Shown here: positions 24,254-51,344 of the stretch, in pieces
Layout of the letters: each line of letters starts with the position of its first letter
How positions within the stretch are numbered: the first letter of the stretch is position 1
Position numbers and translations under genes: made by a program
Assembly (NCBI RefSeq): GCF_004135345.1
Contig: NZ_CP035495.1
Coordinates: forward strand, 3,658,001 to 3,722,000
Source: Xylanimonas allomyrinae
Lineage (GTDB): Bacteria; Actinomycetota; Actinomycetes; Actinomycetales; Cellulomonadaceae
Direction of reading: 5' to 3'
DNA: 64,000 nucleotides
Notes under the pieces: generated by a model
What the model was told of the DNA's origin: nothing
Seen by the model: only the letters and a program-made list of their open reading frames with translations
Database searches by the model: none

Positions 24254-24324
24254 GCCTTGTCAGGCTCCCTCTGGCCGCCTACGGGCTAGCGGCCAGAAAG
24301 TGTGTCTGCGCCGGGCGTGTCGCG

Positions 24325-25085: not shown

Positions 25086-25089
25086 AGCC

Positions 25090-26681: not shown

Positions 26682-26718
26682 ATGTGTTCCTCCAGTGGTC
26701 GTCAAGGTGGGCCGGTGG

Positions 26719-31000: not shown

Positions 31001-31155
31001 CGACGGTTGACAAAGAGGGGGTACTCGTCAGGCGCGCCCGCCTCGTACGTCCTCATCGTGACGGGCTGCGACCACGCCACGGCGCCACCGGCGGCAATGC
31101 GGGCGGCGAGGCTCTCCGGGACGGCCGGGAGGTTGAGCTGAGCATCGTGGTTCAT
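28084..31155 (-). CDS. DUF5107 and TPR-repeat protein
   Basis: A 1,023-aa cytoplasmic protein without signal peptide. Residues 1 to about 430 form the DUF5107 region, which resembles the galactose mutarotase-like beta-sandwich (ENRWVRLMVLPELGGRIHVG, FNWPQHHRPATYLPV). The remainder is tetratricopeptide repeats, with the spacing visible in YSEAEAYLRRALARL and GALALYERALAVRP. Such proteins occur in sugar-use loci, often near rhamnose or arabinose genes. Here it heads the leftward Leloir operon and diverges from an AraC regulator. Enzymatic role unknown; a glycan-acting or binding protein is inferred. ATG 31155 is the chosen start. Confidence 0.85.
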   Translation of the reverse strand: MNHDAQLNLPAVPESLAARIAAGGAVAWSQPVTMRTYEAGAPDEYPLFVNRRVYQGSSGRIYPVPFVDHVEEVPVDRQWRAIHLENRWVRLMVLPELGGRIHVGYDKSADYDFFYRNSVIKPALVGLGGPWISGGVEFNWPQHHRPATYLPVETQIEEHEDGSVTVWCSDHDPFARMRGTHGVRLHPDRAVVEVVVRLHNRTSEAQTFLWWANVAARVHDDYQAFFPTDVDYVADHARRAITAYPKADRPYYGYDYPAHHETGGDRLDFYKNVKVPTSYMVCDTQDDFFGGYDHAAQAGFVHVADRHIAPGKKMWTWGDAAFGHAWDRQLTDSDGPYIELMAGVYTDNQPDFTWLEPGETKTFTQSWFPIQKIGVAHQANAEAAVNLEVTGHHLQAGVAVSRPRPSAVVRITVRGKAICEQQVNLAPDAPFTWSTLLTDDAAPTDARIIVEHDGTTVIDWAPRPRTESAEPWQAVPPPQPAEIESVDELYLTGLHLTQYRHPTRSPIPYWEEGLRRDPGDARCNLALGTERFHRGLYSEAEAYLRRALARLTRYNAQPRDGETSYLLGLTLLRLGNTDAAVDALAKAAWNRAWVAPAAVERARIAARTGHFGEALRLSIEALSCGPDDNRARALQIVALRRLGRPTEADDVIATALAASPLDHTVCALRDGICALSGLDGRTVIDVALDLSRAGDDDGALEALELAARIAPTPAGEFRPLAHYHRAAILDRLGRTQEAVAARLIAQDTPDTLCFPAGLDDQHVLESALSADPTNRQVRCLLAMLYFDAQRGDEALDLWESAIADGETGTVALRNAAIATYSVKADPAGALALYERALAVRPDARLVYEHDQLCARAGVSVVGRVANLDARRDLVLRRDDATVTYCNLLIYVQRLDDAATILDTRRFAPFEGGEGQVLAVWERLNLALSRTSEQEGDLPGAIKAVHDAIAVPEHLGETRHPLADTTEIYTRLATLLDQSGRHDEATAARTQVRGHAIVTPVLDDGSVDYFATSLPDLLLFPPLD

Positions 31156-31223: not shown

Positions 31224-31247
31224 TGATTCTTGCGCGACAATCGGTCC

Positions 31248-32117
31248 ATGCCGATCCGTGACGGCTTTCCTGAGCAGCGCCTCGTCGCGGTGCCCCGCCC
31301 TCTGGTGGAGGCGGCCCTGCAACAGCCGATCACTCGACGACTCGTTGTCACCGATGCGGGGTACTTCCCTCAGGCACCGGATCATCTCGTGGCCCGTCCA
31401 GAGGGCATCGGTGAACACGTCGCAATCCTGTGTACCTCCGGACGTGGATGGGTTCGCTTCGGCGAGCGTCGGCACCCGGTGGGATCCGGTCAAGCGCTAG
31501 TAATACCTGCGACGATCCCGCATGAGTACGGTTCAGGCGCCGAGGATCCGTGGGCGATATGGTGGGTACACGCGGCAGGAAAGGACGCGGGCGAACTGGT
31601 CAGTGCCATCGGCCCGAGGGCTCACCGGCCCACCTTTGAGATTCGTGTGGTTGAGCGTGCCGTGGCACTCATCGACGAGGCCGTGACATCACTCGAACGG
31701 GGAGCATCGGCCGCGACGCTCATCGCTGCCTCTGGCGCCGTCTGGAAGCTTCTGGCGCAACTTGCGGTTGACAGGATCCTGCCACCGCCAGGATCACCGC
31801 TCCAGCGGGCCATGGCGTACCTCGAGGCGCGCGTCGAGTCCCGCGTCCGCGTGAGCGAACTGGCGGCGATGGTTGGTGTGTCGCCATCGCACCTGACGGC
31901 GCTCTTCGGCGAGGCGACCGGCGGAGGGGTGCTTGCCTACCACACGGAGCTCCGCATGGCCCGAGCGCGTCGACTCCTCGACACGACAGGGCTGTCTGTG
32001 AGCGAGATCGCCCAGGACAGCGGGTACGGCGACGCGTTGTACTTCTCGCGACACTTCCGCAAGCACCATGCGCTGAGTCCGACCGAGTACCGACGCCGTG
32101 AACACGGAGGGTCATGA
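31248..32117 (+). CDS. AraC-family sugar-responsive regulator
   Basis: A 289-aa regulator with an N-terminal cupin-like sensing domain (for example GEHVAILCTSGRGWVRFGE and PATIPHEYGSG) and a C-terminal double helix-turn-helix (VRVSELAAMVGVSPSHLTAL, then LSVSEIAQDSGYGDALYFSR). ATG 31248 is preferred over an in-frame TTG at 31230, because GACAAT at 31235-31240 could be the -10. It diverges from the DUF5107-galK operon and is its likely regulator. Its end nearly touches the convergent lacI gene. Confidence 0.9.
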   Translation: MPIRDGFPEQRLVAVPRPLVEAALQQPITRRLVVTDAGYFPQAPDHLVARPEGIGEHVAILCTSGRGWVRFGERRHPVGSGQALVIPATIPHEYGSGAEDPWAIWWVHAAGKDAGELVSAIGPRAHRPTFEIRVVERAVALIDEAVTSLERGASAATLIAASGAVWKLLAQLAVDRILPPPGSPLQRAMAYLEARVESRVRVSELAAMVGVSPSHLTALFGEATGGGVLAYHTELRMARARRLLDTTGLSVSEIAQDSGYGDALYFSRHFRKHHALSPTEYRRREHGGS

Positions 32118-32121
32118 GCCG

Positions 32122-33135
32122 TCAGCCGACGGTGCTCGCCCGCACGACGAGCGTCGGTTCGAGGATCGCGGTCTCGTGGGCGTGGGTGGAACCGTCCGCG
32201 ATCTCCTTGAGCAGTAGACGCATCGCGACGCGGCCGATCGCCTCTCCCGGTTGCTGAACGGTAGTAATCGCGACCGGGCTGTTCCAGGTCGCTTGATTGT
32301 TGTCGTAGCCGACGATCGCAATATCGCCTGGGATTGCGACGCCTGCCATTTGGAGGGCTTGCACCACGCCCACCGCAAGGAGGTCTGTCGATGCAACGAT
32401 GCCATCGATCCTTCCGGCTCTGGCGTCGTCGGCGAGTTCCTGGCCTGCAGACCAGCCGTCGGCACGGCTCACGCCTGCGGGGTCAACGGTTCGAACGTGT
32501 TCGATCGCGTGCTCCTTCACTGCGCGATCGAACCCGGCTGCTCGATGTCGGATCGGACGCAACCCGAGTGGTCCGCCCACAAACGCTAGGCGCTGGCGGC
32601 CAAGACCTGCGAGGTGACAGGTTGCCAGGTAAGCGCCGTGCTCGTTGTCTGCTGAGACCGAGCAACTGAGCGCCGATGGTACCGACAAGTTCACCGAGAC
32701 TGTTGGCAGTCTGCGCCCAAGACTGCCGAGCAACGCCGTGAAGTGGTCGTCATCGTTGAGTCCGAGAAGCACACCAGATGCTCGTTCCTCGTCGAACGCC
32801 TTCAAGTAGCGCTGCTCACGCTCGAGCCGCCCGTCGCTGTGGGCAATCATCAGCACGTGCCCTGCCTCCTCGGCCGCCGCCTCGGCGCCACGGGCCACGT
32901 CGACGAAGAACGAGTTGCCGAGATCGGGCAGAATCAGGCCGGTCAGTCGGCTCGACCCCGCAGCTAGCGTTCGCGCATTTGCGTTTGGCTGATAGTCGAG
33001 TGCCTCGATTGCCCGGGTAACCTTCGCGAGCGTCGCGGGTCGGACCCGGTCTGCGTGGTTGAGCACGTTCGAGACAGTGCCCGTCGAGACGCCCGCGAGT
33101 CGGGCAACATCCGTGATCGATGCTCGCGCTTGCAT
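32122..33135 (-). CDS. LacI-family transcriptional regulator
   Basis: A 337-aa repressor with an N-terminal helix-turn-helix (ITDVARLAGVSTGTVSNVLN), a hinge (ANARTLAAGSSRLTGLILPD) and a periplasmic-binding-protein-like effector domain (DGIVASTDLLAVGVVQAL, IAIVGYDNNQATW). It diverges from the ABC transporter operon across 450 bp containing three matching palindromes, one of them 52 bp before its own start. It probably represses the import and rhamnose genes and itself. The effector is unknown; rhamnose, rhamnulose or a Gal-Rha disaccharide are candidates. Confidence 0.93.
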   Translation of the reverse strand: MQARASITDVARLAGVSTGTVSNVLNHADRVRPATLAKVTRAIEALDYQPNANARTLAAGSSRLTGLILPDLGNSFFVDVARGAEAAAEEAGHVLMIAHSDGRLEREQRYLKAFDEERASGVLLGLNDDDHFTALLGSLGRRLPTVSVNLSVPSALSCSVSADNEHGAYLATCHLAGLGRQRLAFVGGPLGLRPIRHRAAGFDRAVKEHAIEHVRTVDPAGVSRADGWSAGQELADDARAGRIDGIVASTDLLAVGVVQALQMAGVAIPGDIAIVGYDNNQATWNSPVAITTVQQPGEAIGRVAMRLLLKEIADGSTHAHETAILEPTLVVRASTVG

Positions 33136-33186: not shown

Positions 33187-33199
33187 TGCAGCGCTTCAA
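33187..33199. promoter_or_regulatory. LacI-type operator, copy 1
   Basis: TGCAGCGCTTCAA, a near-palindrome centred on AGCGCT, lies 52 bp upstream of the lacI start. It fits autoregulation. Confidence 0.55.
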
Positions 33200-33435
33200 C
33201 CTGATGCGTGACGCCCGATGGCAGCCCAACCGACAGCCCGCGCCGTCGCTCAGAGGTCCCGGGCATGGCGCCGGCCGCAACGAGCGGGCCATCGGCCCAG
33301 GTGATGCCTTCGAAGGCGAACCACCAGAAGCATCGCTGGGGTCTGGCGCGCCAGAGGCCTTCTAGAGCCGCCCGTGGCCGACCAGTTCGCGGACAAGCGT
33401 CAACCGGCCGACGCTCACTATGCGCCAGCACTTGA

Positions 33436-33450
33436 TTGCAGCGCTTCAAT
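33436..33450. promoter_or_regulatory. LacI-type operator, copy 2
   Basis: TTGCAGCGCTTCAAT is almost a perfect palindrome. It overlaps a possible -35 (TTGATT, 33432-33437) and fills the spacer to a possible -10 (TGATGC, 33454-33459), the position expected for repression. Confidence 0.6.
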
Positions 33451-33471
33451 CCGTGATGCTTGACCCAGGCG

Positions 33472-33486
33472 TTGGAGCGCTTCAAG
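33472..33486. promoter_or_regulatory. LacI-type operator, copy 3
   Basis: TTGGAGCGCTTCAAG lies about 100 bp before the first permease gene and 35 bp after copy 2, which would allow cooperative repressor binding. The rest of 33136-33586 contains no gene I can support. Confidence 0.55.
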
Positions 33487-33586: not shown

Positions 33587-34516
33587 GTGGCAGCAGTGAC
33601 GAGCGCCGCGAGTGTCGGCGAACGGGCCCCGCGAACGGTGGAGGCGGGCAACGGGCGCCGTCGGCGATGGGCTGGGTGGGCCTTCATCGGCCCTTTCATG
33701 GCTGTCTTCACACTTGTCTTCCTGGCCCCCATTGCGTACTCACTCTGGCTCAGCGTCCACCGCACGCAGTTCGTCGGCGGAACGCAGTTCGTGGGGCTCG
33801 ACAATTACGTTCGCGCCCTGCAGGACCCTCGATTCTGGGAGGGCGCAGTCCGGGTAGGACTGTTCCTGGCCGTCCAAGTCCCGGTCATGTTCGTCCTCGC
33901 GCTCCTCGCAGCGCTCGCTCTCGACTCGGGGCGCCTGTACGGAAAGAGCTTCTTCCGGATCTCGATCTTCATGCCGTACGCAGTGCCCGGTGTGGTCTCC
34001 GCGCTCATGTGGGGGTTCCTCTATGGAACTCGGTTTGGGTTGACTGGAAACCTGAACGACCTGTTCGGCTGGAACCTCGATCCTCTGAATTCGAGTCTCC
34101 TTCTGCCTGCGATCGGAAACATTGTGACCTGGCAATGGGTCGGATATTCCATGCTCATTTTCTACTCCGCGCTCAAGGTTGTGGACACCTCGTTGTACGA
34201 GGCGGCAGCAATCGACGGCGCCACTCAGTTTCAGATCATTCGCAAGATCAAGATACCGGCTCTTCGCGGCGCGATGGTGATCGCCACGATCTTCTCAATC
34301 ATCGGTAGTTTCCAACTGTTCAACGAACCCCAGATTCTCCAGGCGTTGACTCCGCAGCGAATCACGTCACACTATACCCCGAACATGTTCGCATTCAACC
34401 TGTCCTTTGCCGGGCAGCAGGTCAATTATGCCGCTGCGATCGCCATCATCATGGGCCTGATCACCATGGTGATCGCCTACGTGGTGCAGCTTCGCGGCAC
34501 GCGAAAGGACGTGTGA
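33587..34516 (+). CDS. ABC sugar transporter permease (MalF/CUT1-type)
   Basis: Inner-membrane permease of a carbohydrate importer. The 309-aa protein has about six hydrophobic helices, beginning with GWAFIGPFMAVFTLVFLAPI, and the EAA loop EAAAIDGATQFQIIRKIKIP that contacts the ATPase. GTG 33587 follows AAGGAGG. The next permease starts inside its stop codon. No ATPase gene is nearby, as is usual for CUT1 systems that share an MsmX/MsiK-type ATPase. Its base composition is visibly less GC-rich than the flanks. Confidence 0.93.
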   Translation: MAAVTSAASVGERAPRTVEAGNGRRRRWAGWAFIGPFMAVFTLVFLAPIAYSLWLSVHRTQFVGGTQFVGLDNYVRALQDPRFWEGAVRVGLFLAVQVPVMFVLALLAALALDSGRLYGKSFFRISIFMPYAVPGVVSALMWGFLYGTRFGLTGNLNDLFGWNLDPLNSSLLLPAIGNIVTWQWVGYSMLIFYSALKVVDTSLYEAAAIDGATQFQIIRKIKIPALRGAMVIATIFSIIGSFQLFNEPQILQALTPQRITSHYTPNMFAFNLSFAGQQVNYAAAIAIIMGLITMVIAYVVQLRGTRKDV

Positions 34517-35472
34517 TGGCCAGGCTCGCATCCACTGCCGTTCCGTCGAATGGCACCGAGTCCGACGGGCGCCGAACCGGTCGGCCCGGTCCCATCACGC
34601 TTCGGCCAGGGTTGCTTCGACCCGACAAGAAGCCGAAGAAGTCGATCGTCCGCACCATCCTGATGGCTTTGATGGCGCTCTACACGCTGGTGCCCCTGGC
34701 CTGGCTCGTCTTCAGCTCGACCAAGACACTCGAGGGTCTCCAGACATCGTTCGGACTGTGGTTCGCTGGGGATTTCGCACTGTGGGACAACATCCGGCTC
34801 GTCCTGACGCACCAAGACGGTGTGTTCCTGCGATGGTTTGCGAACACGCTCCTGTATGTGGTCGTGGGAGCAGGGGGCGCGACTCTGCTTGCGCTGCTGG
34901 GCGGCTACGCCCTGGCAAAGTTCGACTTCCCCGGCAAGCGCGCGGTCTTCGCCATAGTCATCGGCGCTGTCGCCGTGCCAGGCACTGCCCTCGCAGTACC
35001 AACCTTCCTGCTTTTCAGCCGACTCGGCTTCACCAACACGCCTTGGGCGGTGATCATCCCATCGCTCATCTCGCCGTTCGCGCTGTATCTCATGTGGACC
35101 TTTGCTAGCGAGGCAATTCCGACGGAACTCATGGAGGCTGCTCGAATTGACGGTGCCGGGGAGTTCCGCACCTTCTTCAAGGTGGGATTGCCACTGCTCG
35201 CACCGGGCACGGTCACTGTCATTCTCATTACGACCGTCACGACCTGGAACAACTTCTTCCTTCCTCTGATCATGTTACGCGATCCCCAGTGGTTCCCGCT
35301 CACGCTTGGGCTCAACAACTGGAATCAGGCGGCATTCACTCCGGGCGGGCAAGCACTCTTCCATCTTGTGCTCACGGGTTCGCTGCTCACTGTCATCCCG
35401 TTGGCGGTCACCTTCCTGCTGCTCCAGCGCTACTGGCAGAACGGTCTGGCCGCCGGCGCGGTCAAGGGTTGA
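34516..35472 (+). CDS. ABC sugar transporter permease (MalG/CUT1-type)
   Basis: Second permease of the importer, 318 aa, with about six membrane helices and the EAA loop EAARIDGAGEFRTFFKVGLP. ATG 34516 overlaps the upstream TGA by one base, indicating translational coupling; a GTG one codon upstream is possible. An N-terminal 50-residue cytoplasmic stretch precedes the first helix. It forms the channel with the preceding permease and takes sugar from the binding protein encoded next. Confidence 0.93.
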   Translation: MARLASTAVPSNGTESDGRRTGRPGPITLRPGLLRPDKKPKKSIVRTILMALMALYTLVPLAWLVFSSTKTLEGLQTSFGLWFAGDFALWDNIRLVLTHQDGVFLRWFANTLLYVVVGAGGATLLALLGGYALAKFDFPGKRAVFAIVIGAVAVPGTALAVPTFLLFSRLGFTNTPWAVIIPSLISPFALYLMWTFASEAIPTELMEAARIDGAGEFRTFFKVGLPLLAPGTVTVILITTVTTWNNFFLPLIMLRDPQWFPLTLGLNNWNQAAFTPGGQALFHLVLTGSLLTVIPLAVTFLLLQRYWQNGLAAGAVKG

Positions 35473-35543: not shown

Positions 35544-36892
35544 ATGACAAACATTCTCAGGCGTGCCGCACACGTCGGCGTCGCAGCCACGACCGCACTC
35601 GGACTCGGGCTCACGCTCGGCGCATGCGGCGGGGGAAGCGGCGACGCTGCTCAGGAAGTCGGTGCCGATGCTGTACGGGCGGCTCTTGAGGAGGGGGGTG
35701 ACCTGCTCATCTGGGCGTGGGAGCCCACGCTTCAGGCCACGGTGGACGCGTTCGTCGCTGAGTACCCGCAGGTGAACGTCGAACTGGTCAATGTCGGTTC
35801 CGGTGCGGACCACTACACGGCGCTGCAGAATGCGCTCACTGCGGGCTCGGGTATACCTGACATCGCACAAATCGAGTACATGGCAGTCGAGCAGTTCAAC
35901 ATGACTGGTGACCTCGCAGACCTCACCCCGTTCGGCGCGGCCGAGCTTGAGGACCGCTTCGTACCGTCCTCGTGGGACGCGGTGGCGACCGGAGACGGCA
36001 TCTTCGGGATGCCAATCGGCGGTGGTCCCATGGTGCTGTTCTATCGTGCGGACGTCCTCGCTGAGCACGGCATCGCAGCTCCCCAGAGACGTGGGACGAG
36101 ATGATCGAGACGATGCGTATGCTGCGGGCGCAGAACCCTGACGTCTACATCGGGTCGAGCGCGATGGACTTCGGCTCGATGCTCGGGCTCATCTGGGCAG
36201 CTGGAGGCGACCCCTTCTCTGTCGATGGCACAACGGTCGGGATCAACCTGACTGATGACCCCGGCGTCGCCCGCGTCGCCGAGGTGTGGCAGACCCTCCA
36301 CGACGAGGGCATGTCGTTCCCTATCCTCAACTGGACCGACGAGTGGTTCCGTGCCCTTGGCGACGGCACCATTGCCTTCTTGCCGATGGGCGCGTGGATG
36401 CCGGGGAACCTGATCGGCTCCGTGCCTGCTGGTGAGGGCGAGTGGCGGGTGGCGCCTCTTCCGCAGTTCGAGGCTGGTGGCACTGGCACTGGTCACCACG
36501 GGGGCTCCACGATCGCGATGATGGACGCTTCGCAGAACAAGGCCCTCGCATACGGGTTCCTTGAGTTCGCGGGTGTCGGCGCGGGCGTCCAGCCGCGCGT
36601 GGACGACGGGATCTTCCCTGACACCGTCGAACACCTTGAGGCGTCCTCTTGGCGTGACGCCGAGGTCGAGTACTTCGGCGACCGGCAGATCAACCAGGTG
36701 CTCGGCGACGCGGCTGCGAATGCTCTGCCCGGCTGGCAGTTCCTGCCCTTCCAGGTCTACGCCAACTCCATCTACTCCGACACCGTCGGTCAGGCGTTCA
36801 TCGACCAGGGCACGATCATGGACGGAATGGCTGCCTGGCAGACGCGGCTTGAGTCCTTCGCGGAGACGCAAGGCTTCGATCTGAAGCAGTAG
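35544..36892 (+). CDS. Extracellular sugar-binding lipoprotein of ABC importer, frame broken once
   Basis: Solute-binding protein, about 449 aa as a composite. The signal peptide ends in the lipobox TLGAC, so it is lipid-anchored outside the membrane. It shows the family 1 pattern, including DLLIWAWEPT, then GIPDIAQIEY, and FLPMGAWMPG. Translation breaks after GIAAP. Adding one C to the CCCC run at 36081-36084 gives GIAAPPETWDEM, a normal hinge sequence, so a base is probably missing from the sequence. ATG 35544 follows AAAGG. Confidence 0.9.
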
Positions 36893-36913
36893 TCGACAAG
36901 GGTTCAGCGAGGC

Positions 36914-36948
36914 GGGGCGGACATCCGCCATGAGCGGATGTCCGCCCC
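36914..36948 (+). terminator. Intergenic hairpin after the binding-protein gene
   Basis: A perfect 15-bp stem (36914-36928 with 36934-36948) has a 5-nt loop and no T tract. Hairpins here often protect the mRNA of highly expressed binding proteins while allowing read-through to downstream genes. Confidence 0.6.
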
Positions 36949-37013
36949 GGTACCACCTCACGCGACCAGCGCTACCAGCAGCACTTCCCGCCGCTTGCCT
37001 TCTGGAGATCAGC

Positions 37014-38336
37014 ATGTCCTACCAGCCGGTTCCGATCCCCTCACACATCCCCGAGAAGCTCACGATCACCTTGTGGGACTTTTCCTGGTACACGCGGACC
37101 GGGCCTGGGGAACCGTTCGAGGATCTAGACGCGGCGTTCCTGCAGTCCGCCGAGCGCGGGTACAACACGATCCGGATCTGCGCGATGCCGTTCCTTCTCT
37201 TCGGAACGTCCCATGGCGGCGAGTCCGCCTCGTTCGGACCGCTGGGAGGCCAGTACGCGCAGAATGTGCGCTGGTATGACGTGAAGCACCGTGTCACGAT
37301 GAACGCGCGCGACCACCTGATCTCGTTGTTCGAGGCCGCGAAGCGGCATGGCTTCTTCGTTATCGTGTCGAGTTGGGAGTACCAGCAGAGTTCAGCATTC
37401 TACGGCGATGCATCCTGGTTCGACGAGCTAATGGCCGTCGATCTGTCCAACAGGCCAGCCGTGCTCGCTCGCTGCATCGCCGACATGGTCGATTTCCTGG
37501 CCTCACGCGATCTGGCGGACAGGATCGCCTTCGTCGAGTTGCACAACGAGGTCCAGTTCGGTTTCCTTGCGAACGCGCTCCCGGATGGCGAGGTCCAGCC
37601 TGGGTTTGCCACGGGCGGGCTGTCCAATGGCATGGATCCGGTGCTCGATCTGAAAGAGCGACTCACCGCGGGGCTCGACCTGTTCCACGACCGGCACCCC
37701 GGCATTGCGGTCACCGTGAACTACGCGGGCGTCCCCGCGGGTGTGATGCGCGGGATCCCCGAGAACATCGACGTCGCCGTGTTCCATCCGTATGTCTACG
37801 GGGTTCTCGACGAGTTCACTGCCAGGTTCAAGCTCCGCGACGAGTCGCGGTTCTCCACCGCCGTCGTGAGGCCGCTCCTGCGGTCGGGCGCACCCGACTA
37901 CGTGGACTGGCAGCCGCCGGCTGAGGACGCGTGGCGCAAGCGCGCCACCATCGTCGGAAAGCCCGAGATCTACGTGCACGACTGGTGTGATGTGGAAGCG
38001 GTCGACCGGTACCTGTACGAGCGGTTCCAGAACCATCACTACGCGATGCTCACCAAGCTTGACTTGTGGATCGACGTCGCCGCCGACTTCGCCGCGAGCC
38101 GTGGGATCCCTCTCGTCTTTGCGGAGGGATGGGTCGGCTATACGCCGCTGCACTCGTGGTATGAAGAAGGGCCGATCGGGGCAGAGTTTTGCCGGATCGC
38201 CGCGAGAAAGTCCAATGAGATCGATGCATGGGGCTACATTGTGTGCTCCAATGCGGCCCCCCATCACCCAATGTGGGGCGAGGCCGCTTTGCAGCGGCAG
38301 TGCAACACCATTTTCACCCAAGGCCTCGAGGCGTAG
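37014..38336 (+). CDS. Cellulase-like TIM-barrel protein (putative clan GH-A hydrolase)
   Basis: A 440-aa cytoplasmic protein without signal peptide, resembling the cellulase-like sugar-binding family found in rhamnose loci. Two glutamates occupy typical clan GH-A positions: E179 in VELHNEVQF (acid/base, after Asn) and E371 in LVFAEGWVGY (nucleophile). An opening strand TLWDFSWYTRTGPGE and many Trp/Tyr suggest a sugar cleft. ATG 37014 follows GGAGATCAGC. Because it is inside the cell, it should act on imported oligosaccharides. Exact family and substrate are not known to me. Confidence 0.75.
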   Translation: MSYQPVPIPSHIPEKLTITLWDFSWYTRTGPGEPFEDLDAAFLQSAERGYNTIRICAMPFLLFGTSHGGESASFGPLGGQYAQNVRWYDVKHRVTMNARDHLISLFEAAKRHGFFVIVSSWEYQQSSAFYGDASWFDELMAVDLSNRPAVLARCIADMVDFLASRDLADRIAFVELHNEVQFGFLANALPDGEVQPGFATGGLSNGMDPVLDLKERLTAGLDLFHDRHPGIAVTVNYAGVPAGVMRGIPENIDVAVFHPYVYGVLDEFTARFKLRDESRFSTAVVRPLLRSGAPDYVDWQPPAEDAWRKRATIVGKPEIYVHDWCDVEAVDRYLYERFQNHHYAMLTKLDLWIDVAADFAASRGIPLVFAEGWVGYTPLHSWYEEGPIGAEFCRIAARKSNEIDAWGYIVCSNAAPHHPMWGEAALQRQCNTIFTQGLEA

Positions 38337-38488: not shown

Positions 38489-39653
38489 GTGCGCCGCTTT
38501 TCTGACACTACCTCTGCACTTGACCGCCTCTCTATCGAGGTACCGTCGTGGGCGTATGGGAACTCTGGGACACGGTTCAAGGTGTTTTCGACGCCAGGGA
38601 CGCCGCGGGACCCGTGGGAGAAGATCGCCGACGCGGCGAAGGTGAATGAGCTGACAGGGCTGGCATCGGCTGTGGCGTTGCACATCCCGTGGGACAAGGT
38701 CGACGACTACACGGAGCTGCGGCAGTTCGCGAACGACCTGGGCGTCGAGCTCGGAACGATCAACTCAAACACGTTCCAGGACGACGAGTACAAGTTCGGG
38801 TCGCTAACCCACGTCGATCCGGCCGTTCGCCGCCGGGCGGTCGATCACCACCTGGACTGCATCGAGATCATGGGGCAGACCGGGTCGCGGGATCTGAAGA
38901 TCTGGCTCGCGGACGGCTCCAACTATGCCGGGCAGGCCGACCTGCGCACGCGCCAGGACCTCCTCGCTGGGTCGTTGGCAGAGATCTACGCAGCCCTGGG
39001 CGACGAGCAGCGGCTGGTGCTGGAGTACAAGTTCTTCGAGCCGGCGTTTTACCACATGGACGTACCGGATTGGGGGACTGCGTACGCCCACGTCGCCGCT
39101 CTCGGGAACAGGGCCATGGTCTGCCTGGACACGGGACACCACGCCCCGGGTACGAACATCGAGTTCATCGTCGCCCAGCTCCTGCGCCTCGGAAAGCTCG
39201 GCTCGTTCGACTTCAACTCGCGCAACTACGCCGACGACGACCTGATTGTCGGGGCGGCAGATCCGTTCCAGCTCTTCCGCATCATGGTTGAGGTCATCCG
39301 CGGGGTGGCCTGGACGAGAGCTCCCCCGTGGCGTTCATGCTCGACCAGTGCCACAACGTCGAAGAAAAGATCCCTGGCCAGATCCGCTCCGTGCTCAACG
39401 TCCAGGAGGCCGCGGCCAAGGCGCTGCTCATCGACCGTGACGCCCTGTCCGCGTTGCAGGCTGCCGGTGACGTGCTCGGCGCGCACAACCTGCTAATGGA
39501 CGCGTTCTGGACCGATGTGCGCGACGACCTCGCTGCCCACCGTGCTGCCAGGGGCCTCCCCGCAGACCCGGTCGCCGCTTTCCACGCCTCCGGATATTCC
39601 GCCCGTGTGGCGACGGAGCGTGTTAGCGGCACTCAGGCGTCCTGGGGGCTTGA
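38489..39653 (+). CDS. rhaI: L-rhamnose isomerase (RhaI type), frame broken near 39303
   Basis: Converts L-rhamnose to L-rhamnulose. It is of the RhaI/xylose-isomerase-like type. Metal-site regions are visible in LVLEYKFFEPAFYHMD, CLDTGHHAPGTN and FDFNSRNYADDD. The frame starting at GTG 38489 (AAGGAG upstream) breaks at about 39302-39305, where GGGG should probably be GGGGG, giving IRGGGLDESSPVAFML. A second missing G at 39644-39648 would create the expected TGA at 39651-39653. With both corrections the protein is 388 aa, the normal length. Without the second it reads straight into rhaB. Confidence 0.88.
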
Positions 39654-39654: not shown

Positions 39655-41130
39655 ATGCCGGCACGGGCGACGCGGGTGGCGGCTGTGGACATCGGGGCGA
39701 CGTCGGGCCGTGTGATGGCCGTGACCATTGGCGCCGACGGGATCTTCATGGAGGAACTGCACCGGTTTCCCAATGGCCTGTGCGACGTCTCCGGTCACCT
39801 GGTCTGGGACTACACGCGCCTGACCGACGGCGTCGTCGAAGGCCTCAGGGCTGCTGCGGAGTCGGGTCCGGTGGATGGGATCGGGATCGACACGTGGGCG
39901 GTCGACTACGGCCTCCTCGACGAAGACGGAAATCTGCTCGGGAGCCCAGTCTGTTACCGCGATGAACGGACGACCAGTGCTGTTGAACGCTTCCCACTGT
40001 CGTCGGAGCGCTTGTACTCGGTCACGGGGATTCAGCACCAGCGGTTCAACACGGTCTATCAGCTCGCCGCCGACAAGGCCGGGCTGGCCCCGGTCAGCGA
40101 TCGACTGGAGCGGGCGGCCCGGCTCCTGCTGATCCCGGACCTGCTCGCCTACGACCTGACCGGCGTGGCGGTGACCGAGGCGACGAACGCGTCCACGACG
40201 GGGATGTTCGACGCCACCACCCGTACCTGGTCACCGGAAGTCCTCGCCGCCGCGGGCGTGGAAGAGTCACTGTTCGGACGGTTGGTCGAGCCGGGTACGG
40301 TCATCGGACCTGTCACCGACCGGGTTGCGGCCCACACCGGGCTCGCGGTGGGCACGCCTGTGATCGCCGTCGGTTCGCACGACACCGCATCCGCCGTCGC
40401 CGCCACCCCCGGCCTGACGCGGGGGGGTGCGTTCATCTCGTCGGGGACCTGGTCGCTCGTCGGGATCGAGCTGAGTGCTCCGGTCCTGACGCAGGCCGGC
40501 AGGGCCGCGAATTTCACCAACGAGCTCGGCGTCGATGACACGGTGCGGTATCTGCGGAACGTCATGGGCCTGTGGCTCCTCACAGAGTGCCTGCGGTCCT
40601 GGGCGGCCGCAGGGAACCACCTGGACCTTCAAGAGCTGCTTGATGACGCCGCCCGCCAGCCCGTCGGTGTCGCGGTGATCGCTGCGGACGACGAGGCGTT
40701 CCTCGCCCCCGGCGACATGCCGGCTCGCATCGCGGCCGCCGTCCAAGCGACTGGCGGTGTCGTGCCGCAGACCCCAAGCCAGTTCGCACGTTGCATCATC
40801 GACTCCCTTGCCCATGCCTACGCTCGCACGATCGAGCAAGCATCCCGGCTCACCGCCACACCCATCGACTCCGTCCACATCGTCGGTGGCGGCTCCCGCA
40901 ACGCCCTGCTGTGCCAGGCCACCGCCGACGCGACCGGCCTCCTCGTTCACGCCGGACCCGGTGAAGCGACGGTTCTGGGCAACGCGATCGTTCAGGCGCG
41001 GACACTCGGTGCCCTCAGCGGATCCCTCGATGACCTGCGCGCCATCGTCGCCGCGTCCTTCCCACCCACCGCCTACACGCCCGCCGCCGCGCCCACCGAC
41101 AAGGGCCAGCCCGCCCGAAAGGCCGTCTGA
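39655..41130 (+). CDS. rhaB: Rhamnulokinase
   Basis: Phosphorylates L-rhamnulose at O1. The 491-aa FGGY-family kinase begins MPARATRVAAVDIGATSGR (phosphate 1 motif). It has GIGIDTWAVDYGLLD, GSHDTASAVAATP, and IVGGGSRNALLCQATADATG (adenosine motif). In the given sequence it is fused in frame to rhaI. I start it at ATG 39655, because homologues begin here and a likely missing G in the run at 39644-39648 removes the rhaI stop. Its stop overlaps the rhaD start by one base. Confidence 0.92.
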   Translation: MPARATRVAAVDIGATSGRVMAVTIGADGIFMEELHRFPNGLCDVSGHLVWDYTRLTDGVVEGLRAAAESGPVDGIGIDTWAVDYGLLDEDGNLLGSPVCYRDERTTSAVERFPLSSERLYSVTGIQHQRFNTVYQLAADKAGLAPVSDRLERAARLLLIPDLLAYDLTGVAVTEATNASTTGMFDATTRTWSPEVLAAAGVEESLFGRLVEPGTVIGPVTDRVAAHTGLAVGTPVIAVGSHDTASAVAATPGLTRGGAFISSGTWSLVGIELSAPVLTQAGRAANFTNELGVDDTVRYLRNVMGLWLLTECLRSWAAAGNHLDLQELLDDAARQPVGVAVIAADDEAFLAPGDMPARIAAAVQATGGVVPQTPSQFARCIIDSLAHAYARTIEQASRLTATPIDSVHIVGGGSRNALLCQATADATGLLVHAGPGEATVLGNAIVQARTLGALSGSLDDLRAIVAASFPPTAYTPAAAPTDKGQPARKAV

Positions 41131-41942
41131 TGACCTATGACCTGAACGCCCTGCTCGCCGAGATGGGACAGGCGGGCACCCGCCTGAACCAGATCGACGC
41201 GTGCGAAGCCAACGCAGGCAATATCTCCGTGACCGTCCCGACCACCGGGCAAGAAGCCGACATCTTCCGCCACGTCGAGCCCTACGCCCTGCCGACCGCG
41301 GTTCCCGCGCTGCGCGGCCGGACGGTGCTGATGTCGGGGTCCCAGCAGCGACTCCGGGACATTGCGGACTCACCCACCGCGATCGTCGCCGCCATCGTGA
41401 TCGACCACGACGGGTCCGCCGTCGTGCGCTCGGCTGAGAACCGGGCCTTCGCCCGCCCCACCAGCGAGGCCAACTCCCACCTCGCCGTCCACAACGATCG
41501 CGTCGGACGCCACCCCGTCGGGGTTCACGCCGTCGTTCACGCTCATGCCCCGTACACCACCACCCTCAGCCACCAGTTCTCGGGCAGTGGCGCGGACCCG
41601 CGAGAGTTCACTCGGCAGATCATGCGCTGGGAACCCGAGCTCGTCGTCCACGTCCCAAACGGCATCGGCTTCCTCCCATTCGAGGTCCCCGGCTCCAAGC
41701 GTCTCGAAGCTGCCTCTGTCGCGGGACTCCGTGATGCCTCTATCGTCGCCTGGGCAAAGCATGGCGTCCTCGCTCGCTCCGACAAGGGCCCCCTCGGCGC
41801 TGTCGACGTCATCGAGTTCATTGAGACTGGCGCACGCTTCCATGTCACCGCCCGGCTGGCGGGCAGCACTGCCACCGGCCTGACCGACGACGAGCTCGCT
41901 GCCATCATCGATGCCTTCTCCATCGAGACCACGGTGTTCTGA
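41130..41942 (+). CDS. rhaD: Rhamnulose-1-phosphate aldolase (class II)
   Basis: Cleaves L-rhamnulose-1-P to DHAP and L-lactaldehyde. The 270-aa class II zinc aldolase has the metal-binding stretch GVHAVVHAHAPYTTTLSHQ, an upstream NAGNISVTVP loop and the late histidine in VAWAKHGVLA. ATG 41130 overlaps the rhaB stop, and rhaM follows 2 bp after its stop, so the three are one operon. The size matches bacterial RhaD. Confidence 0.93.
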   Translation: MTYDLNALLAEMGQAGTRLNQIDACEANAGNISVTVPTTGQEADIFRHVEPYALPTAVPALRGRTVLMSGSQQRLRDIADSPTAIVAAIVIDHDGSAVVRSAENRAFARPTSEANSHLAVHNDRVGRHPVGVHAVVHAHAPYTTTLSHQFSGSGADPREFTRQIMRWEPELVVHVPNGIGFLPFEVPGSKRLEAASVAGLRDASIVAWAKHGVLARSDKGPLGAVDVIEFIETGARFHVTARLAGSTATGLTDDELAAIIDAFSIETTVF

Positions 41943-41944: not shown

Positions 41945-42334
41945 ATGGCGCGAACGATGTTCAGGTTCCGGGTCCGCCCCGACCTGCTCGATGAGTACCG
42001 GGAAGCGCACGCTGCCGTCTGGCCCGAGATGCTCCGGGCGCTCCACGAGACGGGCTGGCGCAACTACTCCATCTTCACCGCCCCCGACGGTGAGGTCATC
42101 GGCTACGTGGAGAGCGACGACATCACCGCGGCCCGTGAAGCGATGAGCGCGTTGGCGGTCAATGAGCGCTGGCAGGCCGCTATGGCCCGCTACTTCGCTG
42201 GGGCGGGCCCCGACGAGCGCCTGGTCGAGCTGAACGAGACGTTTCACCTGGAGACCCAGCTTGCGGCGGCTGACGGTCGGCCCATCGCCGTTGACCGGCA
42301 GGCCCAGCCCCGCGACTACCCAGTCGGCCGCTAG
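41945..42334 (+). CDS. rhaM: L-rhamnose mutarotase
   Basis: Interconverts alpha and beta L-rhamnose. The 129-aa protein has the dimeric ferredoxin-like core with DEYREAHAAVWPEM (catalytic His) and WRNYSIFTAPDGEVIGYVE. Relatives average about 105 aa; a 20-residue C-terminal extension is present here. It lies between rhaD and the GH112 gene. A mutarotase next to the phosphorylase would present the released rhamnose in the form needed by the isomerase. Confidence 0.93.
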   Translation: MARTMFRFRVRPDLLDEYREAHAAVWPEMLRALHETGWRNYSIFTAPDGEVIGYVESDDITAAREAMSALAVNERWQAAMARYFAGAGPDERLVELNETFHLETQLAAADGRPIAVDRQAQPRDYPVGR

Positions 42335-42374: not shown

Positions 42375-44606
42375 GTGAACCAGACATACACGGGTGGTTT
42401 CACCCTGCCCGGCGAGGCCGGCAAGGAGGCTCTGACCCTGCGGCTTGCGGAACGGTGGGGTGCCGACGTGATCCGTGACTCGGACGGGACGAAGCTCTCG
42501 GACGAGATCCTGGGATCCGGTCACGGGATCTACTCGACCTTGTGCCTGGTCCGAGAGGATCTGGAGTGGGCGAAGGCCCACCCGCAGCTCATGCAGCAGA
42601 ACTTCCTGATGTCGGCGCCCGTGGTCGCCGACGCGGACGCGGTGACGATCGACCTGCTGGCCGGGTTCTCTCGGGACCAGTTCGTGGTTCAGGACTGGGA
42701 CGGGGTCGAGGAGTTCTGGCAGGTCCACGACCGCACCACCGGCGAGGTCCTCCCGATCACGCGGTGGGCGCTGGGGAGTGAGGGCACCGTTGTCGTGCGC
42801 GACGCGGTCCCGGGTCACACCTACACGGTGAACTTCCTGGTCATGCGGACCTGGGAAGAGATCTCGATGTACAACCACGTCACCAACGACTGGGGCGACC
42901 GCGAGCACCTGATGGCGGTCGAACCACGGCACCCCGAGGTCGCCGAGCACCTGCTGGCTTGGCTGGAGCAGTGGTGCACGGAGAACCCGGCGACGACGGT
43001 GGTGCGGTTCACGTCGCTGTTCTACAACTTCGCGTGGTTCTGGGGCTCCGACGGGAACCTGCCCCACCTGTACGCGGACTGGGCCTCCTACGACTTCACC
43101 GTGAACCCGATCGCGTTGCGCGCCTTCCGTGAGCAGACGGGGCGGACGATCACGGCCGAGGACTTCGTCAACGCGGGCCGCTACACCTCGACGCACAACC
43201 CGCCGTCGGACGTCTACCGGGCGTGGATGGAGTTCACCTGGGAGTTCGTCCTCGACCTCGGTCGCAAGTGCGTGGATGTCGTGCACCGGCACGGCAAGAA
43301 GGCGTACGTGTTCTACGACGACTCCTGGGTGGGCCTGGAGCCGTTCTCGGGCCGGTTCGCCGAGTACGGCTTCGACGGGCTCATCAAGGCCGTCTTCAAC
43401 GGGTTCGAGGCCCGGCTCAACGCCGCCGTCGACGTCCCCATCCACGAGCTTCGCCTGCACCCTTACCTCTTCCCGGTGGACCTGGAGGGCAAACCCACGT
43501 TCGCGCCAGGTGGCGACCCGTCCACGGACTTGCTGCGGTACTGGGTCACTGTGCGGCAGGCGCTCGTGCGCGCGCGGATCGACCGGATTGGGCTCGGCGG
43601 GTATCTGTCGCTGGTCGAACCGTTTGAGGACTTCCAGGACGCCGTCGCCCGGATCGCCGATGAGCACCGCCGCATCCGCGCGCTTCATCTGTCGTCCGCC
43701 CGCAGCGGCGACGAGACGAGGCCGGTGCGCGTCGGCGTGGTCACCGCGTGGGGAGCGCTCCGCACCTGGTCGACCTCGGGGCACTTCCACGAGAACCGCA
43801 GCCTCTCGCTCATGCACGTCCTGGAGTCTCTGGCCGGGCAGGACTTCGACGTGTCCTTCCACCGCCTCGACGACATCGCTTCCGAAGGCGTCCCCGCCGT
43901 GGATGTCCTGCTCAACGCCGGCCTCGCCGGCTCCTCGTGGTCCGGCGGTGACGCGTGGTCCGACCCGCGCCTGGTCACCGCGATCACCCGGTTCGTGCAT
44001 GACGGCGGTGGGCTGGTCGGCATCGAGGAACCCTCGGCGGTCGCGCCGGGCGCAGGCCTGCGCCGGTTCGCGCTGGCCGACGTGCTCGGCGTTGACCAGG
44101 ACACCGGCGACCGCCGCGTCCTGGACCGTCGCCGCTTCGACATCAGCTCTGAAGCGCACCCGATCATGGACCGCGCCGCGAACGCCGCCGGGATCGGCCC
44201 CGTCCCGGGCCTGATGGTGCTGCGCGACGACGTGCACGTGCTGGCGGCCTCCGACGGCGCTCCGGTCGCGACCGCGACGCCGTTCGGCAAGGGCCGGGCC
44301 GTCTACCTCGCCGCCTACCGTCACGACGCGCACACAGCGCGCCTGCTGGAGAACGCCCTGCGCTGGGCCGCCGGCGCCGAGACCCCGCAGTGGTTGTCGA
44401 CAAACCCCGCGGTCTCGGTCGCCGCGTTTGCGGACGCCGACGGCGACGGCACCGTCGTCGTGCTCAACGACACTCTCGAGCCGCAGCACACGCTGATCCT
44501 CAGCAACGGACGAGCCGTGGCGACTCTCGATCTTCCCCCTGCCGGGTTGATCGAACTGGAGGTCGCGGAGCTCGTCGCGGAGCCTGCCCCACCGGGCACG
44601 TGTTGA
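42375..44606 (+). CDS. GH112 beta-galactoside phosphorylase, probably D-galactosyl-beta-1,4-L-rhamnose phosphorylase
   Basis: Phosphorolytic enzyme giving alpha-D-Gal-1-P plus the acceptor sugar. The 743-aa protein matches GH112 in length and order: ERWGADVIRDSDGTKL at the N-terminus, MYNHVTNDWGDREHLM, PATTVVRFTSLFYNF, and the FYDDSWVGLEP stretch, in which D316 matches the general-acid Asp of lacto-N-biose phosphorylase. GTG 42375 follows GAAGGAG. GH112 acts on Gal-1,3-HexNAc or Gal-1,4-Rha. Position between rhaM and lactaldehyde reductase, with no hexosamine genes, favours the rhamnose type. That specificity is inference; most databases would say lacto-N-biose phosphorylase. Confidence 0.85.
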   Translation: MNQTYTGGFTLPGEAGKEALTLRLAERWGADVIRDSDGTKLSDEILGSGHGIYSTLCLVREDLEWAKAHPQLMQQNFLMSAPVVADADAVTIDLLAGFSRDQFVVQDWDGVEEFWQVHDRTTGEVLPITRWALGSEGTVVVRDAVPGHTYTVNFLVMRTWEEISMYNHVTNDWGDREHLMAVEPRHPEVAEHLLAWLEQWCTENPATTVVRFTSLFYNFAWFWGSDGNLPHLYADWASYDFTVNPIALRAFREQTGRTITAEDFVNAGRYTSTHNPPSDVYRAWMEFTWEFVLDLGRKCVDVVHRHGKKAYVFYDDSWVGLEPFSGRFAEYGFDGLIKAVFNGFEARLNAAVDVPIHELRLHPYLFPVDLEGKPTFAPGGDPSTDLLRYWVTVRQALVRARIDRIGLGGYLSLVEPFEDFQDAVARIADEHRRIRALHLSSARSGDETRPVRVGVVTAWGALRTWSTSGHFHENRSLSLMHVLESLAGQDFDVSFHRLDDIASEGVPAVDVLLNAGLAGSSWSGGDAWSDPRLVTAITRFVHDGGGLVGIEEPSAVAPGAGLRRFALADVLGVDQDTGDRRVLDRRRFDISSEAHPIMDRAANAAGIGPVPGLMVLRDDVHVLAASDGAPVATATPFGKGRAVYLAAYRHDAHTARLLENALRWAAGAETPQWLSTNPAVSVAAFADADGDGTVVVLNDTLEPQHTLILSNGRAVATLDLPPAGLIELEVAELVAEPAPPGTC

Positions 44607-44672: not shown

Positions 44673-45821
44673 GTGGCACACCGCATGATCTGGAACCAGA
44701 CTGCCTACTTCGGCCCGGGCTCGATCGCGGAGATCCCGCGTGAGCTCGTGGCGCGCGGCTTCACCAAAGCCCTTGTCGTGACCGACCAGGTGCTGGTCGA
44801 CACGGGCGTGACCGCCCGCGTCACGACCCTGCTGGATGAGGCCGGGTTCGCCTACGAAGTCTTCAGCGACGTCGCCCCGAACCCGCCGATCGAGTGCGTC
44901 CAGGCCGGCGTGGCGGCGTTCGCCACGGCCGGTGCCGACGTGCTCATCGCCGTCGGCGGCGGGTCACCGCAGGACACGTGCAAGGCGGTCGGCATCGTCA
45001 CCGCCAACCCGGAGTTCGCCGACGTGCGCTCGCTGGAGGGCGTGGCCGCGACGAGGAACCGGTCCGTGCCGATCATCGCGGTGCCCACGACGGCGGGCAC
45101 GGCCTCGGAGACGACCATCAACTACGTGATCACCGACGTCGAGCGGCAGCGCAAGTTCGTGTGCGTCGACCCCAACGACATCCCGCTCCTCGCGGTGGTC
45201 GACCCGGAGATGATGGCGACCGCGCCGCGCGCCCTGAAGGTCGCCACCGGGCTGGACGCACTGACCCACGCGATCGAGGGGTACATCACCGCGGGCGCGT
45301 GGGAGCTGTCCGACCTGTTCCACCTCAAGGCGATCCAGGTCATCGCTGCCGCGCTGCCCGGCGCGGCCGACGGGGACGACGAGGCGATGGAGCGTATGGC
45401 GATGGCGCAGTACATCGCCGGGATGGGCTACTCCAACGTGGGCCTGGGCCTCGTCCACGCCATGGCTCACCCGCTCGGCGCGTTCTTCGACGCCCCGCAC
45501 GGAGTGGCCAACGGCATCCTGCTCGCACCGGTCATGGCGTTCAACGCGTCGAGTTCCGCGGAGAAGTACCGCGACATCGCCGCCGCGTTCGGCGTCGACA
45601 CCACCGGTATGGGCATCGAGGATGCACGCCAGGCCGCCGTCGTCGCCGTCGCCGCGCTCACCGAGTCGCTGGGCAACCCGACCACCATCACCGAGATCGG
45701 CGCGAGCGAGGCCGACATCCCCGCCCTGGCCCAGGCCGCCTACGACGACGTGTGCGCAGGCGGCAACCCGCGCACCGCGACCGTCGAGCAGATCGCAGAC
45801 CTGTACCGCTCCCTGCTGTAG
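44673..45821 (+). CDS. fucO: Lactaldehyde reductase (iron-containing alcohol dehydrogenase)
   Basis: Reduces L-lactaldehyde from the RhaD reaction to 1,2-propanediol with NADH. The 382-aa group III alcohol dehydrogenase has the NAD-binding GGGSPQDTCKA, and metal-binding His in GLDALTHAIEGY and in VHAMAHPLGAFFDAPHGVANG (split here as two motifs within one helix). GTG 44673 has AAAGGAA upstream at rather long spacing. It completes rhamnose breakdown under low oxygen. A strong hairpin follows. Confidence 0.92.
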   Translation: MAHRMIWNQTAYFGPGSIAEIPRELVARGFTKALVVTDQVLVDTGVTARVTTLLDEAGFAYEVFSDVAPNPPIECVQAGVAAFATAGADVLIAVGGGSPQDTCKAVGIVTANPEFADVRSLEGVAATRNRSVPIIAVPTTAGTASETTINYVITDVERQRKFVCVDPNDIPLLAVVDPEMMATAPRALKVATGLDALTHAIEGYITAGAWELSDLFHLKAIQVIAAALPGAADGDDEAMERMAMAQYIAGMGYSNVGLGLVHAMAHPLGAFFDAPHGVANGILLAPVMAFNASSSAEKYRDIAAAFGVDTTGMGIEDARQAAVVAVAALTESLGNPTTITEIGASEADIPALAQAAYDDVCAGGNPRTATVEQIADLYRSLL

Positions 45822-45850: not shown

Positions 45851-48966
<3,116 letters not shown>

Positions 48967-50676: not shown

Positions 50677-51344
50677 GCCAGGGAAGGCCCGGCGACATCC
50701 GTCCGTTCGTCCCGAAGGGCCCGCTCAAGGAGCTCTTGGAGCCGGCCGGGAGAGACCAGGCGCTCCGGATGGTGGCCGGTTACTTCGCCGAAGGGGCCCA
50801 GCCTTTCTCCGGGCGGCGGTTCGAGCGGTTCGCCGGCGGAGGCGACCGTGAGGCAGTCGCTGACGTCATCACCGCTGACGACCTGATCGCGACGACGATG
50901 CTCGGCGTGACGATCAGCGGTGACAGCGCGATCGCGATCCTGGAGACCGAGCGCGAGAAACTCAGCGCCCTCCTCGCGGATGTCTCGAAGACCGACACGT
51001 TCGAGAACCTGACGACCGAGCAGATTCTGGACCCGGAGTGGCCTGCGACGAAGCTCTACTGGGCGCTCCGCGACCGGAGCATCCCTGACGTCGGGGAGAC
51101 GAAGGCGACCAAGATGCTCGCCCGCAAGCGCCCTCACCTCGTCCCGATCATCGACTCATTCGTCCGTGCGCAGGTCCAGGACGAGCATGGGCTGGTCTGG
51201 GCGCCACTGCACCTGTGGCTGACGGACAACGGGCGGGAGAACGCGCAGTGGCTCCGCAGTCTCGGAGACGAGGCGGGCCTGCCGGACATCTCGACGCTCC
51301 GGATTTTCGACGTCCTCGCTTGGAGGTCCGGGACCGGCAAGTAG
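50673..51344 (+). CDS. DUF6308-like hypothetical protein
   Basis: A 223-aa soluble protein of the type listed as DUF6308, best marked by GETKATKMLARKRPHLVPIID followed by a Trp-rich C-terminal helix (VWAPLHLWLTD). Function unknown. It overlaps the preceding PD-(D/E)XK-like gene by four bases, so the two are probably made together and may work together. The family assignment is from memory of the motif. Confidence 0.6.
   Translation: MSQGRPGDIRPFVPKGPLKELLEPAGRDQALRMVAGYFAEGAQPFSGRRFERFAGGGDREAVADVITADDLIATTMLGVTISGDSAIAILETEREKLSALLADVSKTDTFENLTTEQILDPEWPATKLYWALRDRSIPDVGETKATKMLARKRPHLVPIIDSFVRAQVQDEHGLVWAPLHLWLTDNGRENAQWLRSLGDEAGLPDISTLRIFDVLAWRSGTGK

Follow-up and report, generated by a model that had tools for sequence, protein, structure and literature searches.

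A probable galactosyl-rhamnose phosphorylase of family GH112 encoded among rhamnose genes in Xylanimonas allomyrinae

Introduction

Which disaccharide is cleaved by a phosphorylase of glycoside hydrolase family 112 (GH112) whose gene lies among genes for rhamnose catabolism? The question is raised by a stretch of 64,000 nucleotides of the actinobacterium Xylanimonas allomyrinae (contig NZ_CP035495.1, positions 3,658,001 to 3,722,000 of the forward strand), which in its full length is called the window here and to which all coordinates refer. An earlier note, made from the letters of the window, had read its GH112 gene as part of a complete rhamnose operon and had proposed that galactosyl-rhamnose is imported and split into galactose 1-phosphate (Gal-1-P) and L-rhamnose. 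Two activities come into question, namely D-galactosyl-beta-1,4-L-rhamnose phosphorylase, which we take to be EC 2.4.1.247, and galacto-N-biose/lacto-N-biose phosphorylase. In the parts of PMC8950772 consulted, the table lists Oter_1377 of Opitutus terrae PB90-1 and Cphy_1920 of Lachnoclostridium phytofermentans as galactosyl-rhamnose phosphorylases; the remaining GH112 rows are N-acetylhexosamine types (N type), of which the actinobacterial ones come from Bifidobacterium and Cutibacterium. On the comparisons below, the product of the window gene is probably a D-galactosyl-beta-1,4-L-rhamnose phosphorylase supplying a rhamnose catabolic operon, a reading to which we give a probability of about 0.82.

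Results

The GH112 gene and its protein

42375..44606, + strand: GH112 phosphorylase, probably of the galactosyl-rhamnose type (743 aa; from profile matches, trees, separating residues and fold)

The reading frame opens with GTG at 42375, has GAAGGAGA a little 5' of this start, and continues uninterrupted to the stop at 44606. The profiles PF09508 (554 bits) and PF17385 (191 bits) span the length of the protein and place it in GH112, and TIGR02336 matches residues 5-725 with 614 bits (cut-off 560.3). A genome-wide search showed that it is the single GH112 protein of the 3,848,642-base genome (E = 3.7e-167). Its Asp316 is aligned with Asp313 of the bifidobacterial phosphorylase GLNBP, at a position where all 128 aligned rows have Asp; residue 313 is presumably the proton donor of GLNBP. 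The catalytic acid of GLNBP is mentioned, with no residue number, in the consulted part of PMC8106489. The predicted model of the window protein (predicted local distance difference test, pLDDT, 82.8) has a template modelling (TM) score of 0.90 on 2zus.

Identity and trees

The two types were anchored by GLNBP and by L098, the sole GH112 protein of genome G600, which we take to be the characterised galactosyl-rhamnose phosphorylase of O. terrae PB90-1. With the window protein, L098 shares 51.8% identity and GLNBP 37.4%. The opposite is seen for L002 and L003, which come from genomes of the window's taxonomic family and are 37.9 and 38.9% identical to L098 and 53.8% to GLNBP. In a species genome collection with 572 relatives, the 80 best belong mostly to Lachnospiraceae, further Clostridia, Opitutaceae and Paenibacillus, with identities of 45-54%; because likeness to the window protein was the ranking criterion, the other GH112 type is under-sampled among them. 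The only actinobacterium in this set is Miniimonas arenae (63% identity), and a search of genomes of the window's family gave five more members of the same clade.

Two trees were built, one with 51 rows from 98 aligned sequences and one with 39 rows from 128, leaving out L005 (68.7% identity), L091-L095, L097, most Opitutaceae loci and those Lachnotalea-family matches that had no locus number. In the 51-row tree, the window protein (L001) forms one clade with L004, L006, L007, L008 and L010 (support 100/100). This clade belongs to the 46 rows on the side of L098, which are separated at 100/100 from GLNBP, L090, L002, L003 and L009. The 39-row tree, with ten more N-type proteins, splits 24 rhamnose-type from 15 N-type rows, again at 100/100. 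Both trees place the actinobacterial clade inside Firmicutes sequences, beside L016, L017 and L018 (96/95 and 96/91), on a long stem of 0.63 and 0.68 changes per column, respectively. The program warned of long branches that meet (L090 with GLNBP, in the 51-row tree) and of a long L009 in both trees. Within the clade, L010 is the named Miniimonas protein, and an actinobacterial origin of the other members is inferred from kinship, guanine-plus-cytosine (GC) content and the plasmid matches of one contig. That contig, C2 of G000 (32160 bases), carries transfer genes and shares short parts of its first 12 kb with Miniimonas, Paenarthrobacter, Arthrobacter, Leifsonia and Cellulomonas plasmids.

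Residues that separate the two types

Each sequence was assigned to a type by its closeness to L098 or GLNBP, and columns were called separating when each side agreed in at least 90% of its rows and the two sides differed, among 87 rhamnose-type and 32 N-type sequences with the actinobacterial ones left out. At the 50 positions found in this way, the window protein has 45 rhamnose-type residues, one N-type residue and four that fit neither, and the six left-out clade proteins have 45-48 rhamnose-type and 0-2 N-type residues. The actinobacterial proteins L002, L003 and L009 carry 30 N-type and 7-9 rhamnose-type residues. GLNBP, though part of the training set, has 28 and 8, a low N-type score that arises because 31 of the 32 N-type rows are from Lachnospiraceae. 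Pro161, Val162 and Ser336 of GLNBP, which we take to be acceptor-side positions, are aligned with Glu162, Ile163 and Ala339 of the window protein.

The earlier note had named a GH112 tree and a comparison of acceptor-site residues as the way to check its proposal, and both bear it out: the window protein groups with L098 and apart from GLNBP in two trees, and its separating residues are overwhelmingly of the rhamnose type. Family, subfamily and catalytic residue, like the gene order given next, are read directly from the sequence.

Rhamnose genes around the GH112 gene

38489..39496, + strand: rhaI, L-rhamnose isomerase, 5' part (TIGR02635; homology goes on in another frame to 39648)
39658..41130, + strand: rhaB, rhamnulokinase (TIGR02627; Pfam cut-off passed)
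41130..41942, + strand: rhaD, rhamnulose-1-phosphate aldolase (NF002963, 147.9 bits, cut-off 170)
41945..42334, + strand: rhaM, L-rhamnose mutarotase (PF05336, 86 bits)
44673..45821, + strand: fucO-type lactaldehyde reductase (NF007911, 621 bits, cut-off 537)
45851..45887, no strand: perfect 15-nt inverted repeat 3' of fucO (not called terminator-like in the terminator scan)
45934..48966, + strand: GH2 LacZ-type beta-galactosidase, 3' of the inverted repeat (profile matches)

A full-length GH112 gene between rhaM and the lactaldehyde reductase gene, after rhaI, rhaB and rhaD, is what the earlier note had described, and the frame and profile matches agree with it. The isomerase, kinase, aldolase and mutarotase genes stand together as best family matches, with rhaI frameshifted. 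Among the rhamnose and galactose proteins, only the lactaldehyde reductase passes an NCBIfam cut-off; the best matches of RhaI (469.6 bits against 531), RhaB (444.6 against 528), RhaD (147.9 against 170) and RhaM (45.6 against 99.6) stay below theirs. Pfam cut-offs are passed by RhaB, RhaM, GalK, the UDPGP protein and both permeases. It is possible that the inverted repeat marks the end of the operon, and the GH2 gene is possibly a separate transcript.

Transporter, regulators and galactose genes

25242..26705, - strand: UDPGP-family UDP-sugar pyrophosphorylase (PF01704, 355 bits)
26719..27951, - strand: galK, galactokinase (galactokinase signature; best NCBIfam match 223.1 bits, cut-off 226.65)
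28084..31155, - strand: DUF5107 and TPR protein (domain matches)
31230..32117, + strand: AraC-family regulator (domain match)
32122..33135, - strand: LacI-family regulator, divergent from the transporter genes (profile match)
33187..33485, no strand: three operator-like sites TGNAGCGCTTCAA (at 33187, 33437 and 33473), between the LacI and first permease genes
33587..34516, + strand: CUT1-type ABC permease (PF00528, BPD_transp_1)
34513..35472, + strand: CUT1-type ABC permease (PF00528, BPD_transp_1)
35544..36104, + strand: solute-binding protein, N-terminal piece (lipoprotein-like start; frame change near 36084)
36101..36892, + strand: solute-binding protein, C-terminal piece in another frame (PF01547, SBP_bac_1)
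36913..36949, no strand: perfect 16-nt inverted repeat, after the binding-protein gene and ahead of the enzyme genes
37014..38336, + strand: sugar-binding cellulase-like protein (PF12876; barrel-like model)

The CUT1 importer that had been placed upstream of the GH112 gene is represented by two permeases and a piece with an SBP_bac_1 match. The genes examined included none that could be recognised as an ABC ATPase gene. The galactokinase gene and the UDP-sugar pyrophosphorylase gene, likewise claimed for the island, are found on the minus strand by the galactokinase signature and the UDPGP match. The PF12876 gene and the GH2 beta-galactosidase gene are additions to what the earlier note had named. 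With up to two mismatches, the TGNAGCGCTTCAA pattern has nine matches in the window against 2.12 expected, a count in which palindromic sites are scored on both strands and which is biased, since the pattern was picked after the repeats had been noticed. The exact site was found in none of 224 loci, and scans of the window for promoters and terminators gave nothing exceeding shuffled sequence.

Linkage of GH112 and rhamnose genes elsewhere

Matches to RhaA or RhaB occur in four of 80 named rhamnose-type loci (L017, L023, L083 and L087, with a mean length of 17.7 kb) and in none of 20 N-type loci. The order in L083 is GH112-rhaB-rhaA, directly adjacent; in L017 and L023 the match lies within about 6 kb, and L087 has a RhaA match only. 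Of five 20-kb loci, the near-identical sisters L127 and L128 contain rhaI and rhaM, and L125, L126 and L132 do not. No rhamnose genes were found in three actinobacterial N-type loci. CUT1 transporter-like genes lie upstream in L010 and L126. Linkage of GH112 to rhamnose genes recurs in Clostridia and is not general. As a separate observation, L078 (Clostridium sp. Marseille-P2415) has two GH112 matches within about 5 kb, at 10001-12067 and from about 13.3 kb, with 49 and 45% identity to the window protein.

Distribution and origin

GH112 was found in eight of 200 genomes of the window's family, its own included; by identity, the proteins of G000, G050, G129, G099, G102 and G115 are of the rhamnose type and those of G015 and G012 of the N type. 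A class sample of 394 genomes gave two, the window's own and one of the N type, and none of ten other congeners searched (four of them less than 80% complete) had a match. GH112 was present in 27 of 130 genomes sampled from the family of the Opitutaceae record L030 and in 111 of 397 sampled genomes of the family of Lachnotalea. Seven of the ten other congeners have RhaB relatives, six at 48-56% identity and one weak; in four such loci, rhaI accompanies rhaB in two and a GH112 match was found in none.

The GC content is 0.59-0.73 at about 21-53 kb and higher on either side (0.72-0.79 on the left, 0.69-0.77 on the right), and a tRNA-Met gene lies at 24130-24204, where it falls; no repeat of the 3' end of this gene was found within the window. 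By eye, the stretch 24130-25200, in which the tRNA-Met gene is followed by sequence without a clear gene, may hold an integrase remnant. The six actinobacterial proteins form one clade that is rare and patchy, which suggests horizontal transfer, and horizontal acquisition is probably the simplest reading. No close relative was confirmed in viral contigs, and a search of plasmids gave a single GH112 record, from Subdoligranulum at 33% identity.

The PF12876 gene is matched in 33 of 200 family genomes (20 at 54-57% identity, two marginal) and in none of the ten other congeners. In ten such loci, DUF5107 is near in nine and an AraC regulator in seven, with neither GH112 nor rhamnose genes in any; in L184, a GH35 gene lies between the DUF5107 and PF12876 genes. 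The window therefore combines the AraC-DUF5107-PF12876 module known from its relatives with a rhamnose-GH112 unit that has been added to it. Among known structures, 3gyc, a putative glycoside hydrolase, comes nearest to the model of the PF12876 protein (pLDDT 74.3), with TM 0.64 and 17% identity.

Discussion

Several points weigh against a galactosyl-rhamnose phosphorylase that serves the rhamnose genes. Firstly, the assignment of L098, the anchor backed by assays, to O. terrae PB90-1 is presumptive, and L098 alone anchors the galactosyl-rhamnose side of the trees. Secondly, the tree program flags an unlike letter composition of the actinobacterial rows in both trees. Thirdly, as statistical proof the linkage of GH112 to rhamnose genes (4/80 against 0/20) had to be set aside, being too weak to separate the types. 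Fourthly, no GH53 galactanase was found. The remaining two, broken genes and an unusual residue, are taken up with the alternative readings that they favour.

The broken genes concern the word complete, by which the earlier note described the operon and which does not hold for the sequence as assembled. When compared by tblastn with the intact RhaI of L127 and L128, the window rhaI follows frame 3 to 39301-39310 and frame 2 from 39310 to 39648, with a frame change at about 39305. Its tail in the second frame has no stop ahead of the rhaB start at 39658, which leaves rhaI fused in frame to rhaB, and the binding-protein gene (35544-36892) changes frame near 36084. No second convincing rhaI was found in the genome, the one other place having 29% identity over residues 78-260 of 270. 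It may be asked, then, whether the enzyme type is right and the operon an acquired one in decay and no longer functional in this strain, which would be compatible with our assignment of the enzyme. The two frameshifted genes, the absent stop, the want of another RhaI, the lower GC of the region and the absence of GH112 from the ten other congeners searched all fit such decay. Against it, each of the three lesions coincides with a short run of G or C, where assembly errors are common, and rhaB, rhaD, rhaM, the GH112 gene, fucO and both permease genes are open. The position of the lesions is compatible with assembly error without being proof of it. The lesions may stem from sequencing or assembly error or from gene decay, and we regard a non-working operon as unlikely.

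The unusual residue is at position 339, which is Ala in six of six actinobacterial rows, Cys in 84 of the 87 other rhamnose-type rows and Ser in all 32 N-type training rows. Together with the long stem of the clade, it could mean that the acceptor preference of a rhamnose-type enzyme has shifted in actinobacteria, for example towards a different deoxysugar or linkage, or towards a longer piece of rhamnogalacturonan. However, the operon is for rhamnose itself and 45 of the 50 type-defining positions are retained, which makes such a shift improbable. In a wider idea, the clade marked by Ala339 would act as a phosphorylase on a different beta-galactosyl-6-deoxyhexose or on rhamnogalacturonan I fragments of greater length, with the AraC-DUF5107-PF12876 module as part of an intracellular rhamnogalacturonan line; we put this forward as a long shot.

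That the protein is a galacto-N-biose/lacto-N-biose phosphorylase, as TIGR02336 names it, lying beside rhamnose genes by chance, is hardly credible: it does exceed the equivalog cut-off (614 against 560 bits) and N-type members do exist in genomes of the same family and class (L002, L003, L009), but the model gives the O. terrae protein 749 bits and so does not discriminate, the protein does not group with GLNBP and has one N-type residue in 50, and the presumed acceptor-side Pro161, Val162 and Ser336 of GLNBP are Glu, Ile and Ala here.

This points to an annotation problem. TIGR02336 is an equivalog model for '1,3-beta-galactosyl-N-acetylhexosamine phosphorylase', with a cut-off (560.3 bits) that is passed by L002 (972 bits), L098 (749) and the window protein (614). 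The model thus gives the rhamnose-type L098 and the window protein the name of the other type, and from these two scanned proteins we expect that other rhamnose-type proteins are misnamed likewise. Under that name, a capacity for plant-derived sugar may be mistaken for one for mucin or milk glycans; in the part of PMC8702856 consulted, Firmicutes GH112 is filed under animal glycan. The 50 separating positions offer a simple means of telling the GH112 types apart.

If the window enzyme is a galactosyl-rhamnose phosphorylase, the following pathway may be proposed, in which substrate, uptake, regulation and flux are predictions. The LacI regulator would sense the sugar, and the CUT1 importer would take up galactosyl-rhamnose, which is most likely set free extracellularly from rhamnogalacturonan I, perhaps through the action of other organisms. 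Once in the cytosol, the disaccharide would be cleaved by the GH112 enzyme to alpha-Gal-1-P and L-rhamnose, phosphate serving as nucleophile and Asp316 as general acid. RhaM, RhaI, RhaB and RhaD would convert the rhamnose to dihydroxyacetone phosphate and L-lactaldehyde, and FucO would reduce the latter to 1,2-propanediol. Gal-1-P would skip the galactokinase and be turned into UDP-galactose by the UDPGP enzyme. The split of galactosyl-rhamnose into Gal-1-P and L-rhamnose, as read in the earlier note, gains support at the level of sequence from the tree, the residues, the rhamnose genes and the UDPGP gene beside galK.

With regard to Gal-1-P, no match to PF01087, the N-terminal domain of GalT, was found in the genome, and the same profile matches in six of 14 control genomes. 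This absence and the UDPGP gene beside galK make the UDPGP route plausible, and Gal-1-P is probably converted with uridine triphosphate (UTP) to UDP-galactose by the UDPGP protein. GalK may serve free galactose released by the GH2 enzyme. Whether galactose comes at no energy cost, as the earlier note had proposed, would depend on the balance of UTP and pyrophosphate in the pyrophosphorylase route. Neither a hexosamine kinase nor NahK was seen in those island genes that were scanned or inspected by eye, and no genome-wide search for one was made. We also considered a PF07470 match as an upstream polysaccharide enzyme; this single match (42.6 bits, cut-off 26.6) lies 7 kb beyond the window and was judged to belong to a separate uronate-type cluster. 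That neighbourhood (L167, 6963-17760, starting 7 kb past the window) contains GH88-like, KduI and DUF2264 matches and two permease-like matches, and probably serves the uptake of unsaturated uronides.

How does the window enzyme compare with known systems? Oter_1377 belongs to the same family and subfamily (51.8% identity) and has all 50 rhamnose-type residues, which it helped to define, compared with 45 in the window protein. It differs in its verrucomicrobial host, in a Cys where the window protein has Ala339 (aligned with GLNBP Ser336), and in that no rha gene was found in its 20-kb locus L132, although GH112 lies near one end of that locus. Cphy_1920 is set beside the window enzyme by its stated activity, which is the one proposed here; other Lachnospiraceae relatives (45-52% identity) were compared by sequence. 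A role for Cphy_1920 in the degradation of rhamnogalacturonan I is suggested in the part of PMC8950772 consulted. GLNBP shares the GH112 fold (TM 0.90), the aligned catalytic Asp and, according to the excerpt of PMC8106489, the combination of an ABC importer with a phosphorylase, but it is 37.4% identical and has other residues at the separating positions. The cluster of B. longum described in that excerpt has NahK, GalT and GalE, whereas the window has rhamnose genes and a UDPGP enzyme. The clostridial loci L083, L087, L017 and L023 likewise combine a rhamnose-type GH112 with rhamnose catabolism, but they have RhaA instead of RhaI as isomerase, show other gene orders and are four of the 80 named loci.

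No account of actinobacteria with a galactosyl-rhamnose phosphorylase among their rhamnose genes was found in a literature collection with few subscription papers and without CAZy, which is weak evidence of absence. In particular, the consulted portions of PMC8950772, PMC8565777, PMC4452783, PMC8106489, PMC8254964, PMC4230839, PMC6265309, PMC7265232, PMC8702856, PMC9039043, PMC7564387 and PMC11739564 do not describe this enzyme type together with this operon. On our assignment, the enzyme type is a known one, and what is new is its taxonomic extension to actinobacteria and the annotation problem. A likely fragment of pectin side chains would thereby have a phosphorolytic route in actinobacteria.

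Two features elsewhere in the window may be mentioned. At 49483-51344, a gene of the PD-(D/E)XK_4 nuclease superfamily (PF14281, 32.2 bits) lies beside a 223-aa frame, and we guess that the two might form a defence pair. A SAM-IV riboswitch (76.3 bits) is present at 52633-52747, directly 5' of an unassigned 238-aa frame at 52757-53473.

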